Assembly: GCA_905233345.1 (NCBI GenBank)
Contig: CAJODQ010000009.1
Location: forward strand, 1-57,914
Reading direction: 5' to 3'
Source: an uncultured Bacteroidales bacterium
GTDB taxonomy: Bacteria > Bacteroidota > Bacteroidia > Bacteroidales > UBA932
DNA: 57,914 nucleotides
Shown here piece by piece: positions 1 to 4,574 of the stretch (position 1 is the stretch's first letter; every line of letters starts with the position of its first letter). The notes beneath the pieces are model-generated. The model saw only the letters and a program-made list of their open reading frames with translations, was not told where the DNA came from and searched no databases. The translations under genes and the position numbers were made by a program.

Positions 1-293
1 TTCTGCGACCGCTCAATCCAGGCCTCGATCTCCTGACGGCGGAAGAGGGTAGTCCGGCCGGACTTGTAGTGGGGGATGCCGTGGAAGTAGAGCCAGCTGC
101 GGACGAGTTCAATCTTCGGGTCACCGGGAATCATCCTCCGGAGTTCATAGATGTCAATCCAATCCTCCTGCGGGCCGATGGTGCCGTTTAACACCGGTTC
201 GGTCTTGAGGGTAAGCCAGCCGTCGATGGCCTCCAGCTGCTTAACGATGCCGGCCAGAACTGCCGGAATCATGGCCACATTGATCTGCTCCAT
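1..293 (-). CDS. Excisionase-like helix-turn-helix protein (3' end outside window)
   Basis: The frame runs off the left edge, so the C-terminus is missing. It starts MEQINVAMIPAVL. The second half has the layout of a MerR/excisionase-type HTH domain (HTH_17): WIDIYELRRMIPG, then VRSWLYFHGIPHYKSGR, then an RRQEIEAWIE helix. It lies 5 bases downstream of a paralogue with the same order of parts: a short N-terminal helix containing IDGWL (IDSKL in the paralogue), a linker, and the HTH. Such pairs are common in Bacteroidetes integrative and conjugative elements, where they bind DNA as excision or regulatory factors; that role is inferred here. The 5-base gap and shared orientation suggest co-transcription with the gene at 299-661. 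Confidence 0.7.
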   Translation of the reverse strand, partial: MEQINVAMIPAVLAGIVKQLEAIDGWLTLKTEPVLNGTIGPQEDWIDIYELRRMIPGDPKIELVRSWLYFHGIPHYKSGRTTLFRRQEIEAWIERSQ

Positions 294-298
294 ACCGG

Positions 299-661
299 CT
301 ACCTCCTTCTGCCTCCTAAGGGATGCGTGGCGCAATACCGTTGCGCCTCCTCCATCAACTCGGTGTTGTCTTTCACGCGGGTGCGAAGCAGCCACTTGTC
401 AATCTCCGACTTCTTGAACATCAACGTCTTGCCCTGCTTGTAGTAGGGGATGGTATTGTCATTGACCCAACTGTACACGGTCGATGGAGCCGGATGCGAC
501 GGCAGATACCTGCCCAGATCCTTGACATTCATCAGCTCCGGTGTGTCATCCGTAGGGATCGGAGCAACATTCACCTTGTCCAACTTCGAGTCGATGCTCT
601 CCAGCAGTTCCGCAATCCGACCCACCAGACCCGGAACCATTTCAAAAGTATATTCGTTCAT
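299..661 (-). CDS. Excisionase-like helix-turn-helix protein
   Basis: 120 residues starting MNEYTFEMVPGL. The C-terminal half has an HTH_17-type domain (MNVKDLGRYLP, STVYSWVNDNTIPYYKQGK, FKKSEIDKWLL). The open frame continues upstream to 718, but a promoter-like pair (CAAA at 707-710 and CAAAGGTC at 679-686, read on the minus strand as TTTG-N20-GACCTTTG) lies inside that extension, so the Met at 661 is preferred. It is a paralogue of the partial gene immediately downstream. A DNA-binding role in a mobile element is likely from family and context; the operator is unknown. Confidence 0.7.
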   Translation of the reverse strand: MNEYTFEMVPGLVGRIAELLESIDSKLDKVNVAPIPTDDTPELMNVKDLGRYLPSHPAPSTVYSWVNDNTIPYYKQGKTLMFKKSEIDKWLLRTRVKDNTELMEEAQRYCATHPLGGRRR

Positions 662-678
662 ATCAGGAAGTTTTTCTG

Positions 679-710
679 CAAAGGTCACAGCTTTTGCCGA
701 TATAAACAAA
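679..710 (-). promoter_or_regulatory. Probable promoter of the two HTH genes
   Basis: Minus strand: TTTG (complement of 707-710), 20-base spacer, GACCTTTG (complement of 679-686). This is one mismatch from the Bacteroidetes consensus TTTG-N19-TAnnTTTG. The expected transcription start lies about 10 bases before the ATG at 661. Confidence 0.45.
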
Positions 711-721
711 GCGGTCAAAGC

Positions 722-903
722 CAGTTCACTACGCTAACGCTCCGTTCACTCGCTTTGGTTCCGTCCTCCGGGGCACAAAGCGCCCCTCCGAACTCCACTT
801 GTGCCAGCTCCACTGCGAGACTCTTCCTTCCGAGCTACGCCGCTCCAGTCAGAGACTCGCGGACGTTCCGCGGCGTGCTTCGCGCATATATAGTTATAAA
901 AAA
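722..903. other. GC-rich non-coding stretch
   Basis: No credible gene. It differs from its AT-rich surroundings and carries small GC-rich inverted repeats such as CGCGGACGTTCCGCGG near 853-868. It separates the terminator of the TAC operon from the promoter of the HTH genes. Confidence 0.4.
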
Positions 904-933
904 CAGGAATCTTTCTGTTTTGAAAGATTCCTG
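904..933 (-). terminator. Rho-independent terminator of the TAC operon
   Basis: Perfect 12-base stem CAGGAATCTTTC / GAAAGATTCCTG with a 6-base loop. Read on the minus strand, the stem is followed by TTTTTTATAAC. It lies 33 bases past the stop of the SecB-like gene. Confidence 0.8.
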
Positions 934-965
934 CTCTTTATAAGCCATTTATCCCCTGACGTCTG

Positions 966-1403
966 TTATTTAGGCGTCGATAAGTTGGCATTTAATTGAT
1001 TCACATCGATCATCGGAAGGGGATACTTTGACAAATTGGTACCAGCGGTTTTAACTACCAGTATACCACGCATTGTTCCGACCGCCACACTTAAAAAATG
1101 CGGCATGATATGGTTGACGGTAATGCTCTGGTTATCATTGAAAATGATAAACTGCTTGAGTTCTTTTACTTCAAACTCAAATTTGTAAAGGCTTTCAAGC
1201 ACAACTTCATCTTCCAATTCATATCGGGTGCCAAAGATCAGGACAAATAAGTCGTGATCAATGTCAGGTTGTATTTGAGTCGAGAAACCAATTTTCATGG
1301 AGTCAGGACTGATATTGTCTCCCACTTTACCTGGGGACATCATAAAGCTAACCTCGCTAACCGATGCAAGTCTTAATTGGATATTTACATTATTATCTGC
1401 CAT
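966..1403 (-). CDS. SecB-like chaperone of a toxin-antitoxin-chaperone (TAC) operon
   Basis: 145 residues. The second half follows the SecB fold pattern: a beta-rich core (YKFEFEVKELKQFIIF), then PHFLSVAVGTMRGILVVKTAG and a PLPMIDVNQLNANL tail. This matches the SecB order of PHILGI / FPYAREVI / FPPLNLAPVNFDAL. Housekeeping SecB assists protein export and is not generally expected in Bacteroidetes. Here the gene is the third of a tight toxin / XRE antitoxin / SecB-like set (6-base gap to the antitoxin), which is the TAC architecture described for M. tuberculosis HigB1-HigA1-Rv1957. In that system the chaperone holds the antitoxin C-terminus and protects it from aggregation and proteolysis. The role here is inferred from fold pattern plus operon order. 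Confidence 0.75.
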   Translation of the reverse strand: MADNNVNIQLRLASVSEVSFMMSPGKVGDNISPDSMKIGFSTQIQPDIDHDLFVLIFGTRYELEDEVVLESLYKFEFEVKELKQFIIFNDNQSITVNHIMPHFLSVAVGTMRGILVVKTAGTNLSKYPLPMIDVNQLNANLSTPK

Positions 1404-1409
1404 AGCGAA

Positions 1410-1793
1410 CTAATTAAGATATGCCATGAGGCATTCACTATTCTCCTTGTTAACATAAGTTCCTCCGAAACGCTCAGAGAGAGTAATATAGTTTTGGATA
1501 GGTACAAACACATATTGGACTTGAGGGTCCTTCTTGACCATCACAACAGGCTCACCAAGAACAGCGGAGATCTTGGCAAGTGTCGTGGTTGTAAATCCAT
1601 GGGAGCCGGTGAGCCATCTGGAAATCTCGGACTCACGCTTCCCCATAAGTGCGGCAAATTCCCGCTGTGTCATCTTCTTCTCCTTAAGAAGATCATAGAT
1701 GCGGTTCGCGATGTCAACGTTAAGGCTCACCTCCTCCATCACCTCAGGAGCGACATTGGCAACGCATTGATCAAATAGAGAATTCTTTTTCAT
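1410..1793 (-). CDS. XRE-family (HigA-type) antitoxin
   Basis: 127 residues. The HTH_3/XRE domain lies at about residues 28-82 (RIYDLLKEKKMTQREFAALM, then KRESEISRWLTGSHGFTTTTL). It is followed by an extension of about 40 residues rich in hydrophobic and aromatic positions (VQYVFVPIQNYI, LSERFGGTYV). In known TAC systems such a C-terminal extension is the chaperone-addiction (ChAD) segment bound by the SecB-like protein; that reading is inferred. The gene lies 8 bases after the toxin gene and 6 before the chaperone gene. It probably represses the operon promoter, as HigA proteins do. Confidence 0.8.
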   Translation of the reverse strand: MKKNSLFDQCVANVAPEVMEEVSLNVDIANRIYDLLKEKKMTQREFAALMGKRESEISRWLTGSHGFTTTTLAKISAVLGEPVVMVKKDPQVQYVFVPIQNYITLSERFGGTYVNKENSECLMAYLN

Positions 1794-1801
1794 AACAAGT
1801 A

Positions 1802-2296
1802 TTATATGGTGATCGTTTCAATTATTGTTTTAATGGTCTGATAATCTTCATAATCTGAATGGGCCTTCCGCGTCTCAACAAAAACCAGATGCTCTATGTC
1901 TCGAAGCTGATTCACGATTCCTAATAAAACAGGATCATCTTCAAATCGAGCTACTTTCTTTATTCCTCCATTTCCTATAATAAGAAGCCTATCAGATATC
2001 CGAATACAATACAACCGAACGGTGCCGACACCTCGTCCTCTTCTATGCTCTATAATAAGTGGGAGTGCTTTGATATTTCGTCCTTCAAGCCGAAACAAAT
2101 TCTCTCTGGCACCACAGTCCGTGAGCATTTTCTGAATACGAGCGATTATTTCGTCAAAATCTTTCTTTAATTGTGGATGAGATAGCGCGCCGTTGTTGGA
2201 CATAAATTTCTCGAACTCGGTCAGTGTTTCACCATCATACTTTGGTGAATATATACTGACATTATCGCTTTCGATTACAAGTTCGAGCTTTCCCAT
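1802..2296 (-). CDS. Putative HigB/RelE-type toxin of the TAC operon
   Basis: 164 residues from MGKLELVIES. The middle (LFRLEGRNIKALPL, then GVGTVRLYCIRISDRLLIIG, then GGIKK) resembles the RelE/HigB (Gp49-like) pattern of a basic beta-hairpin followed by a strand that reports size and shape of a small mRNA interferase. First position in a toxin-antitoxin-chaperone operon supports the call. The open frame extends to 2359, but a near-perfect promoter at 2318-2348 sits inside that extension. The start must therefore be Met at 2305 (leader only about 6 bases) or at 2296 (preferred). Toxicity is not shown; the N-terminal 60 residues are not recognised. Confidence 0.55.
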   Translation of the reverse strand: MGKLELVIESDNVSIYSPKYDGETLTEFEKFMSNNGALSHPQLKKDFDEIIARIQKMLTDCGARENLFRLEGRNIKALPLIIEHRRGRGVGTVRLYCIRISDRLLIIGNGGIKKVARFEDDPVLLGIVNQLRDIEHLVFVETRKAHSDYEDYQTIKTIIETITI

Positions 2297-2317
2297 ACAA
2301 TGCATTGTTTGAGGGCA

Positions 2318-2348
2318 CAAAGATATGTCATTATTCTGAGAAAACAAA
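2318..2348 (-). promoter_or_regulatory. Promoter of the TAC operon
   Basis: Minus strand TTTG (complement of 2345-2348), exact 19-base spacer, TATCTTTG (complement of 2318-2325). This is a full match to the Bacteroidetes primary-sigma consensus. It fixes the toxin start downstream of 2318. Confidence 0.75.
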
Positions 2349-2498
2349 GAAAAATTCACTTTTTTGTTAAGTTTTCGAGGGAAAATGGCAGGTTGGATAT
2401 TGAGCTACATAAGAATTAATTGTATATGAGGGTTTAAGCGGTCACGGCCAGCAGTCGGTTGTTTCGCTCGCTGCGCTTGCTTGACTGCTACGGCTGTC

Positions 2499-2678
2499 AT
2501 GACCTTCCAGAACCGATATTATGGCCCTACGAGGGATACTTATGCCGAAAACTACTACCAACACAACGAATCCTGGTACTGCCCCCGCCCGTTCTATTTG
2601 AGCCTCACCTGGAGATTCGGAAAGACGAGCATCAACTTCAAGCACGCCAGGAAGACGGAGGTGAGTGATAAAATATGA
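2499..2678 (+). pseudogene. C-terminal remnant of a TonB-dependent-type outer-membrane receptor
   Basis: About 55 residues ending in a natural stop. The text RPFYLSLTWRFGK followed by NFKHARKTEVSD is the usual last beta-strand and tail of Bacteroidetes outer-membrane beta-barrel receptors (OMP_b-brl_3 / SusC-like). Nothing upstream encodes the rest of the barrel; the preceding bases are a GC-rich hairpin region. It is a leftover of a deleted gene. Confidence 0.55.
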
Positions 2679-2779
2679 TTGATCAAACCTAATCACCCCC
2701 GATGAGATGTAATTTGGCAAATATGCATTTCCCGACTTGGAAAGTACATATTTGCCATTTGTGACATGGGACAATTCCG

Positions 2780-2956
2780 GTGCTAAACCTCAAAATAACG
2801 GTAGATGATCTGGAAGGACTGGACAAAACAATGGTACTTGTATTGTATTTTAAACATGTTTACGGCTACGATACAATCAGAAACGAAGATATGATAGGGA
2901 AGTACCATTTTAAAATCGCTACTTATTCGTGTGAAAACTCCGTAAAGATTTCATAA
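2780..2956 (+). CDS. Short ORF of unknown function, possibly a remnant
   Basis: 58 codons beginning with GTG: VLNLKITVDDLEGLD, then MVLVLYFKHVYGYD, ending SVKIS. No family is recognised and no promoter is evident. Amino-acid use looks protein-like (alternating hydrophobic residues), so it may be a fragment of a larger lost gene. Low confidence. Confidence 0.2.
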   Translation: MLNLKITVDDLEGLDKTMVLVLYFKHVYGYDTIRNEDMIGKYHFKIATYSCENSVKIS

Positions 2957-2987
2957 AACTGCGGTTTTGGTAACTATTTCGGTAAAG

Positions 2988-3039
2988 TGTGACAAAATTC
3001 TGTCACGGAAGGTGATTTTGTGACAAACACTGTGACAAA
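2988..3039. repeat. Three direct repeats TGTGACAAA
   Basis: Exact 9-base copies at 2988-2996, 3019-3027 and 3031-3039. The first forms a hairpin with TGTCAC at 3001-3006. They lie about 150 bases from the mnmE stop, in the accessory flank. They could be binding sites of an integrase, excisionase or repressor; no protein can be assigned. Confidence 0.5.
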
Positions 3040-3182
3040 ACCGACTAAAATCAAAGAAATCCAATCATAACCATGGAATCTCGAAGATAGTCGTATCGAA
3101 CTCGAAAAAGAGTTGTTTTCAACTAGTTTGAGATTTTTATCTCAAGCTTTATTCAAGAAATAACTAATTGAATATCAGCTTT

Positions 3183-4574
3183 TTATTTCCCGATGCAAAA
3201 ATTGCGGAAGATATTCCCAAGTATCTCATCTGTAGACACTTCGCCCACTATTGATGCGAGGTGGTAGAGGGCTTCGCGGAGGTCTTGGGCCACGAGATCC
3301 GTGGGGACGGAGCATTGTAGGCCAGTCTGGACACGGCGGAGCGCCGCGGCTGCATTCTGCAGGGCTTCCAGGTGGCGGGTATTGGTCACCAGGGTGGTTT
3401 CAGCAGCCGTGTCGAGTTGCTGCCAGGTGCTGGCAATGGCTTCCTGCAGGGCATCCAGGCCAAGGCCGGACTTCGCGGCAATGACGAAAGCGGTGTAGTC
3501 GGGCAGGGATGCCTGCACAAGCTGGATGTATTCTTCCGAGACAGCGTCAGCTTTATTCAGCAGGAAAATCAGTTGTTGCTCCGGGGAAACACGTGCCGCG
3601 ATGTCCCGGGCACTGGCCAATAGAGCGGGCAGGGGAGCTGTCAGGTCGAGCACCGCCAGCACGAGCTGGGCGGCGGACAGTTTCTCGTAGGCCCGTTCGA
3701 TGCCGATGCGCTCGATGGTGTCGTCGCTCTCTCGCAGGCCGGCTGTGTCGATGAAGCGGAAGAGCACGCCGCCGAGGTTGCAGGTCTCTTCGATGGTGTC
3801 GCGTGTGGTGCCGGCAATGTCGGAAACAATGGCCCGGTTCTCGCCCAGCAGGGCGTTGAGCAGAGTGCTTTTCCCGGAATTTGTATTACCGACAATCGCC
3901 ACAGGTACACCATTTTTAATGGCATTACCTAAACGGAAACTTTCGATCAGTTTCTGGCAGTGGGCGAGGACCTTTTCGACCAGTTCGCGCAGCTGGGTAC
4001 GGTCCGCAAATTCAACTTCTTCTTCGCTGAAATCGAGTTCCAGTTCCATGAGCGAGGCCAGGTGCAGGAGCTCGGCCCGCATGCCGGCGAGCTCGTCGCT
4101 GAAGCCGCCTTTGAGCTGTTTCAAAGCGATGCGGTGCGCTGCGGCAGTTTGGGCGGCAATCAGGTCGGCCACGGCTTCGGCCTGAGAGAGGTCCATCTTG
4201 CCGTTTACGAAGGCCCTCTGCGTAAATTCGCCGGGAGCGGCCATTTTCGCGCCATTCTGCAGCAGCATGGCCAGGACGCGGGAAACAATGTAGTCGGAGC
4301 CGTGGCAAGCGATTTCCACGGCGTTTTCGCCCGTATAGGAGTGCGGTGCCCGGAACACCGACACCAGCACCTCGTCAAGCAGGGCTCCATCGGCTTCATG
4401 CAAGCTGCCGAAATGCAGCGAATAGCCCTGGGCATCAGCCAGCGGCTTTTTCCCTCGGAAGATACGGTCCACGCAGGCCAGGGCGTCACGCCCGCTCACG
4501 CGGATGACGGCGATGGCACCGCCACGGGCGGTGGCGGGCGCACAGATCGTATTATCGAAGCGTTCCTGCTGCAT
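3183..4574 (-). CDS. mnmE: tRNA uridine-5-carboxymethylaminomethyl(34) synthesis GTPase MnmE
   Basis: 463 residues, normal for the family. With MnmG, MnmE makes the cmnm5 modification at wobble U34 of several tRNAs. An N-terminal tetrahydrofolate-binding domain (RGGAIAVIRVSG, PGEFTQRAFVNGKMDL) is followed by a helical domain with an inserted G domain: GNTNSGKS at about 229-236, DTAGLRE and NKAD. The invariant C-terminal CIGK is present as FCIGK plus stop. The upstream Met at 4586 is rejected because the -7 promoter box overlaps it; MQQERF at 4574 is used. The 3' end of this gene is a known target of SGI1-type integrative elements in enterobacteria, which matters because accessory DNA begins immediately after the stop. 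Confidence 0.97.
   Translation of the reverse strand: MQQERFDNTICAPATARGGAIAVIRVSGRDALACVDRIFRGKKPLADAQGYSLHFGSLHEADGALLDEVLVSVFRAPHSYTGENAVEIACHGSDYIVSRVLAMLLQNGAKMAAPGEFTQRAFVNGKMDLSQAEAVADLIAAQTAAAHRIALKQLKGGFSDELAGMRAELLHLASLMELELDFSEEEVEFADRTQLRELVEKVLAHCQKLIESFRLGNAIKNGVPVAIVGNTNSGKSTLLNALLGENRAIVSDIAGTTRDTIEETCNLGGVLFRFIDTAGLRESDDTIERIGIERAYEKLSAAQLVLAVLDLTAPLPALLASARDIAARVSPEQQLIFLLNKADAVSEEYIQLVQASLPDYTAFVIAAKSGLGLDALQEAIASTWQQLDTAAETTLVTNTRHLEALQNAAAALRRVQTGLQCSVPTDLVAQDLREALYHLASIVGEVSTDEILGNIFRNFCIGK

Follow-up and report, generated by a model that had tools for sequence, protein, structure and literature searches.

A probable toxin-antitoxin-chaperone cassette with a predicted SecB-fold third protein in Bacteroidales

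On the minus strand of a 57,914-nucleotide stretch from an uncultured Bacteroidales bacterium (positions 1 to 57,914 of contig CAJODQ010000009.1, assembly GCA_905233345.1; hereafter 'the window'), the list of open reading frames (ORFs) places three genes in the order toxin, antitoxin and chaperone, separated by gaps of 8 and 6 bases. The first (1802 to 2296) encodes a 164-residue protein with a predicted HigB/RelE fold, the second (1410 to 1793) a 127-residue antitoxin in which a Cro/C1-type helix-turn-helix (HTH) domain is followed by a C-terminal tail, and the third (966 to 1403) a SecB-like chaperone of 145 residues; the last 37 residues of the antitoxin (1413 to 1523) represent a candidate chaperone-addiction region. 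An initial annotation, made from the sequence alone, had described three tightly spaced genes with a promoter and terminator of their own, arranged as in toxin-antitoxin-chaperone (TAC) operons, and that description held in each respect. An element of the form TTTG-N19-TATCTTTG, a Bacteroides-type promoter by its consensus, lies upstream at 2318 to 2348 (minus strand), its upstream edge coinciding with the end coordinate of the initial annotation, and of the 22 loci examined (window included), 12 have the same TTTG/TATCTTTG string upstream when the spacer may vary from 18 to 20. Downstream, an inverted repeat at 894 to 943 (minus strand) has the features of an intrinsic terminator hairpin: RNA corresponding to 965 to 885 folds with an energy of -31.9 kcal/mol (z of -8.1 relative to shuffled sequences) and carries a U run. 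Because the GTG at 2359, chosen as the toxin start in the ORF list, is located upstream of the promoter, the corresponding 185-residue product was ruled out; translation would instead begin at the ATG at 2296 (MGKLEL...), from which close relatives align, or possibly at 2305. The earlier statement that the N-terminal 60 residues of this protein are not recognised was thus in part the product of a wrong start codon, and the remainder of that region falls within the HigB-like fold, for which the alignment begins at residue 12.

The association of these three genes, and in particular of the antitoxin tail with the chaperone, was examined across relatives. A scan of genome contigs with the toxin alignment returned 532 candidate stretches, of which 501 were relatives and the best 80 were kept; together with loci matched by a toxin profile and with viral contigs these gave 117 loci, with L001 and L119 dropped as repeats of L030 (the window) and L117, respectively. 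For the toxin tree seven rows were removed (toxins under 130 residues or identical), leaving 110, a further five of which had no complete antitoxin. The trio is present in 33 distinct loci including the window, in the same order throughout, with the genes contiguous in 32 and a transposase-like gene separating antitoxin and chaperone in one; the linkage in other Bacteroidales that the initial annotation had proposed as a check was therefore found. When a long tail was defined as at least 30 residues past the HTH core, it was observed in all 33 loci with a chaperone (window and L003 included) versus 3 of 72 without one (L057, L084 and L086), and with the added condition of at least four F/W/Y residues the counts became 32 of 33 versus 0 of 72. 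The toxin tree requires six changes in the presence of the chaperone, at least five of them on starred branches, compared with 28.7 changes in shuffles, and tail and chaperone have been coupled through at least five switches. In five independent pairs the tail followed the chaperone in 4.8 on average and never went the opposite way (p of 0.0625, the floor for five pairs); with the aromatic condition 4.0 were concordant (p of 0.125). Toxin and chaperone distances, furthermore, correlate at 0.95. Such joint movement is the pattern predicted by chaperone addiction, a behavior that was demonstrated by laboratory tail swaps (PMC5105189).

Individual loci illustrate this coupling. L003, which had appeared to possess a tail without a chaperone, proved to carry one on the strand of the antitoxin, 1.3 kb further downstream and beyond a 349-residue opposite-strand gene that is transposase-like by eye; L003 was the only locus searched for a displaced chaperone. 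The near relative L041 has neither a chaperone (no trace by tblastn) nor a normal tail. At L144:990-2039 stands the transposase-like gene (by eye) that separates the antitoxin and the chaperone of a TAC in genome G335.

The antitoxin itself matches HTH_3 (2.3e-10) and the PADLOC profile PDC-M64C (5.2e-28), and the earlier assignment of an XRE antitoxin with a long tail is upheld, the C-terminal extension being the part that travels with the chaperone. In the window this tail contains 16% F/W/Y and terminates in AYLN. Its sequence is variable even in near relatives, in which a hydrophobic-aromatic patch following the HTH and the terminal residues are kept: asparagine is the last residue in 19 of the 21 near antitoxins (L028-L030, L032-L040 and L042-L050), and a Y-x-N end occurs in 15 of the 33 chaperone-linked antitoxins, all 15 of them within that near group. 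The two Trp-containing patches described for the Mycobacterium tuberculosis antitoxin tail (PMC5105189) have a layout comparable to that of the patch in the window family. An AA end was observed in one of the 33 chaperone-linked antitoxins (window included), and the route of degradation therefore probably differs from that of CmdA and HigA1, which carry ClpXP-type ends, or is less direct.

No RelE/HigB model of Pfam or NCBIfam was matched by the toxin, nor did Pfam match any of 16 family members, and searches of the Protein Data Bank (PDB) with phmmer and with a profile returned nothing relevant (the best hits being 40S ribosomal protein S3 at E 0.0087 and, for the profile, an E of 0.89). A confident predicted structure nevertheless supports a HigB/RelE fold, with HigB proteins as the nearest folds, and the RelE/HigB likeness claimed in the initial annotation thus stands at the level of the predicted fold. 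In place of the HigB E-x-R motif the family displays the signature FRxEG...A[LI]P...RLYCxRxS...GNGGxK. Alignment of the toxin profile with those of 11 Gp49-type HigB proteins from the same order had a low probability (5.2% and 3.7%) but followed the order that the fold would predict, placing the HigB E-x-R pair on the invariant A77 and on P79 of the window toxin, and R94 and K113 on the HigB Arg and Lys. R94 is invariant in alignments of 16 and of 39 rows, and K113 is conserved in at least 90% of the 16 rows and less so in the 39. We take the aligned HigB Arg and Lys to be equivalents of R77 and K95 in the toxin of M. tuberculosis, where toxicity was reported to require each of them. Cleavage of mRNA by the toxin, acting as a ribosome-dependent nuclease, is on this basis rather likely; the ParE family of the same superfamily is described as including both mRNases and gyrase inhibitors (PMC11980606).

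The third protein is supported as a SecB fold by a confident predicted structure, in agreement with the initial annotation. It had no score above the cut-off of the Pfam SecB family (PF02556), and no PDB match was obtained with the single sequence; a profile gave marginal SecB matches (E of 0.016, 0.28 and 0.29). Across 393 genomes of the order that profile matched 66 places, in 59 genomes, and only one of the 66 is overlapped by a PF02556 place; the profile therefore describes a SecB lineage overlooked by Pfam. A review had already placed 33 TAC chaperones outside PF02556 (PMC4257090). For 30 of the 66 places, a toxin-profile place lies on the same strand no more than 2.5 kb upstream. Among the other 36, those inspected had more distant RelE-like neighbors (for example L171), an antitoxin without a recognised toxin (L168), or a solitary appearance. 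In this last category, window-type SecB-like genes at L159, L163, L164, L169 and L172 show no recognisable toxin or antitoxin just upstream, and are possibly solitary Bacteroidales chaperones.

Immediately upstream of the promoter (2351 to 2374, minus strand) lies a 24-bp inverted repeat, AAACTTAAC-AAAAAA-GTGAATTTT, which is likely to be the operator of the antitoxin; it differs by one mismatch from the form found in relatives, AAACTTAAC-AAAAAA-GTGAAGTTT, and occurs once, at up to two mismatches, in the 2.32-Mb genome (89% complete). Its 20-bp core is conserved within two mismatches in all 22 near loci. At L028 and L039 the operator-like element stands upstream of the toxin as its reverse complement; here a nearly symmetric site has been inverted in nature with its core left in place, as expected of a symmetric operator. 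At up to four mismatches the repeat is found near the toxin start in 24 of the 33 chaperone-bearing loci and in 11 of the 84 others (L003 and L041 being counted in the 84), with five other matches in 947 kb; a looser motif reached 10.7 and 9.4 of 12 in the two groups, respectively, whereas the corresponding scores were 8.1 and 8.0 elsewhere in the loci and 8.4 and 8.3 after Markov resampling. A 12-bp palindrome between promoter and start (2297 to 2308, ACAATGCATTGT) was a weaker operator candidate, and was set aside when no perfect 12-bp copy was found at the matching place in 21 other loci.

The cassette is also mobile as a unit. DNA similarity to the nearest relative, L032, extends from 941 to 2398 (93%), and to other relatives it falls inside 966 to 2383, while the flanks gave no match to relatives at E 1e-10; since the shared DNA ends at the terminator and the operator, what travels is the segment between them. 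In the window this segment adjoins the 3' end of mnmE, a gene identified by its sequence. An integration repeat at that end was rejected: positions 1 to 3400 hold no direct repeat other than a 16-nucleotide pair of no evident meaning, although the contig, beginning at base 1, covers only the near end of the inserted DNA. At L158:1191-1911 (genome G130) a gene of 206 codons, again directly downstream of an mnmE (47% identical over 401 residues), fuses an antitoxin HTH to a SecB-like domain and follows a short remnant that by eye resembles the end of a related toxin; it may be a TAC that has been disarmed after insertion at the same spot. Next to the TAC on the minus strand, at 299 to 718 and 3 to 395 of the window, are two HTH genes related to each other (29% identity across 105 residues); the first has excisionase-type HTH matches and scores 60.4 bits against the MADS1 defence HTH model, below its cut-off of 80, and the pair suggests that a mobile segment occupies the stretch from the contig start to mnmE. 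Short ORFs on the plus strand at 2459 to 2680 include one that by eye looks like the last part of an outer-membrane protein (...YLSLTWRFGKTSINFKHARKT...) and may be a remnant left between the TAC and mnmE.

Within the order, the toxin profile matches 57 of 393 genomes (the window's own included), and Pfam names neither toxin nor chaperone. A phage collection contained neither a chaperone match nor a toxin relative, and a plasmid collection contained one weak chaperone match (39% coverage) and one toxin relative on a Bacteroides thetaiotaomicron plasmid. Among viral contigs the chaperone as a single query matched none and as an alignment matched one. Complete trios are present on two of the seven viral-contig relatives (L117 and L118, among L112-L118, from IMG/VR), and the cassette may therefore ride on phages or other mobile elements. 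A scan for defence genes, which took in two window proteins and 83 of the 132 ORFs that flank 19 loci, returned Vsr (2 members), Drt3a (2) and PDC-S01 (3) among the best 25 of 104 and of 77 families, with housekeeping genes numerous and no background set for comparison.

The PF02556-type SecB genes of the order form a separate, TAC-like lineage with a HEPN- or CmdT-like toxin and a CmdC-type SecB, and 30 of their 40 places were examined (loci within L174-L203, for example L177, L182, L195, L197, L200 and L202). In 24 of these 30 loci the product of the adjacent upstream gene ends in AA, as does a single one among 590 background ORFs (150 residues or longer, drawn from other loci and the window). 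Further upstream, a home-made profile found a HEPN-like protein in 13 of 30 loci (Pfam HEPN being above its cut-off in both of two tested), and a CmdT homologue takes its place in L200 (PD-T4-9_A, 1e-42), with a weak match in L180 (2.4e-5); both of two SecB genes tested match PD-T4-9_C. The antitoxin ends were compared with host ssrA tags in 12 hand-chosen genomes, several of them selected for tag-like ends (so that the counts give no frequency), nine of which were comparable (four of these nine having one tag in common). In three of the nine the end is the complete tag of the host, tmRNA alanine included (AGNDYNYALAA in G306 and AGENNYALAA in G191 and G165); it is close in G351 (9/11), G184 (8/10) and G238 (7/10), and not in G020 (5/11), G196 (4/11) or G013 (3/11). 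Random re-pairing of hosts and antitoxins across the nine genomes gave p values of 0.0011 for the shared suffix and 0.0056 for identity. Some antitoxins of this sister lineage thus carry a genome-encoded ssrA tag that matches the host beyond chance. Across the phylum, PF02556 matched in 10 of 375 genomes; among the 10 loci, L225 is a repeat of L197, the upstream gene ends in AA in L218, LAS in L221 and LAG in L226, the other six show nothing similar, and the exact tag was not found on an antitoxin in any of these loci outside the order. TAC antitoxins ending in LAA have been published (PMC11618068); a full host-matched tag was not found in a limited literature search at the level of listings.

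Comparison with described systems places the window family near several of them. All three proteins match profiles of the PADLOC candidate PDC-M64 (M64B/M64C), and therefore belong by profile to the same family set; the toxin profile of that candidate also finds two-gene systems without a chaperone, and its profiles carry no description. Neither the name PDC-M64 nor the window family was recognised in the literature searched, which covered few subscription papers. The M. tuberculosis higBA-secB system (Rv1955-Rv1957) has no sequence match to the window proteins in the PDB searches; its HigB has the E-x-R pair for which the window toxin has no aligned counterpart, and its HigA1 ends in a Val-Ala ClpX degron (PMC8165232), unlike the window antitoxin. 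The initial annotation had drawn a parallel to the phage-sensing CmdTAC system of Escherichia coli (PD-T4-9), which stands for the gene order and the SecB-fold third protein. CmdTAC is not, however, the nearest relative, because CmdT is an mRNA ADP-ribosyltransferase and CmdA ends in LAA (PMC11618068), whereas the window toxin has a predicted HigB/RelE fold without a PD-T4-9_A match and the window antitoxin ends in AYLN; none of the window proteins matched a PD-T4-9 profile. The higBAC system of E. coli C496 (Mets et al. 2024) likewise combines a HigB toxin, a HigA antitoxin and a SecB-like chaperone, and there the lambda major tail protein triggers abortive infection (PMC11980606). The same source files TAC toxins under PF_HigB and PF_gp49, in contrast to the window toxin, which matches no Pfam family.

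The three genes very probably constitute a type II TAC cassette in which a chaperone guards the antitoxin. In such a cassette the toxin of HigB fold, whose most likely activity is ribosome-dependent cleavage of mRNA, would be bound by the HTH antitoxin, which at the 24-bp inverted repeat would also repress the operon, and the extra C-terminal tail would destabilise the antitoxin unless the SecB-fold protein held it. Were that chaperone drawn off, one reported cause in CmdTAC and in higBAC of E. coli being a structural phage protein made in abundance, the antitoxin would be lost and the free toxin would then stop translation. A role in phage defence is plausible.

The third gene might instead be a passenger, a SecB-like chaperone with an unrelated job such as export beside a two-gene toxin-antitoxin system. 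Most relatives do have two genes, with 62 of the best 80 loci showing no visible chaperone (at least six of those at a contig end), and some chaperones of the family look solitary; the joint gain and loss of tail and chaperone, the correlated distances of toxin and chaperone, and the fact that the DNA shared with the nearest relatives spans all three genes and ends near the terminator nevertheless make this quite improbable. A TAC whose HigB-fold toxin has another target or chemistry has a somewhat better claim, although still an unlikely one: the classical HigB catalytic positions would not be conserved, the family signature replaces the HigB E-x-R motif, Pfam RelE/HigB models fail across the 16 members, and the ParE family spans two activities (PMC11980606), while the nearness of the fold to HigB proteins and the alignment of R94 and K113, weak as it is, argue for the conventional activity. 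A selfish addiction cassette, with no defence role and persisting because its loss harms the cell, is a real possibility if not the favored one, given a discrete unit that moves between genomes with different flanks and leaves broken copies (L041 and L158); against it stands the appearance of the profiles among the defence candidates of PADLOC, which is a listing rather than a test.

If the three genes do form a chaperone-guarded TAC, a further and decidedly tentative proposal is that they represent a Bacteroidales lineage departing from known systems at both ends, with a different toxin active-site signature, and with an aromatic tail (ending in Y-x-N in near relatives) that would serve both as the grip of the chaperone and as a destruction signal without a ClpXP tag, the whole sensing gut Bacteroidales phages by chaperone capture. 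Given the different signature, the target or the cut of the toxin may be new. Because two- and three-gene forms of a single toxin family have repeatedly switched, they offer natural pairs on which chaperone addiction can be tested; and if the cassette defends its host, the sensing of phages through chaperone capture would reach into the Bacteroidales as well.
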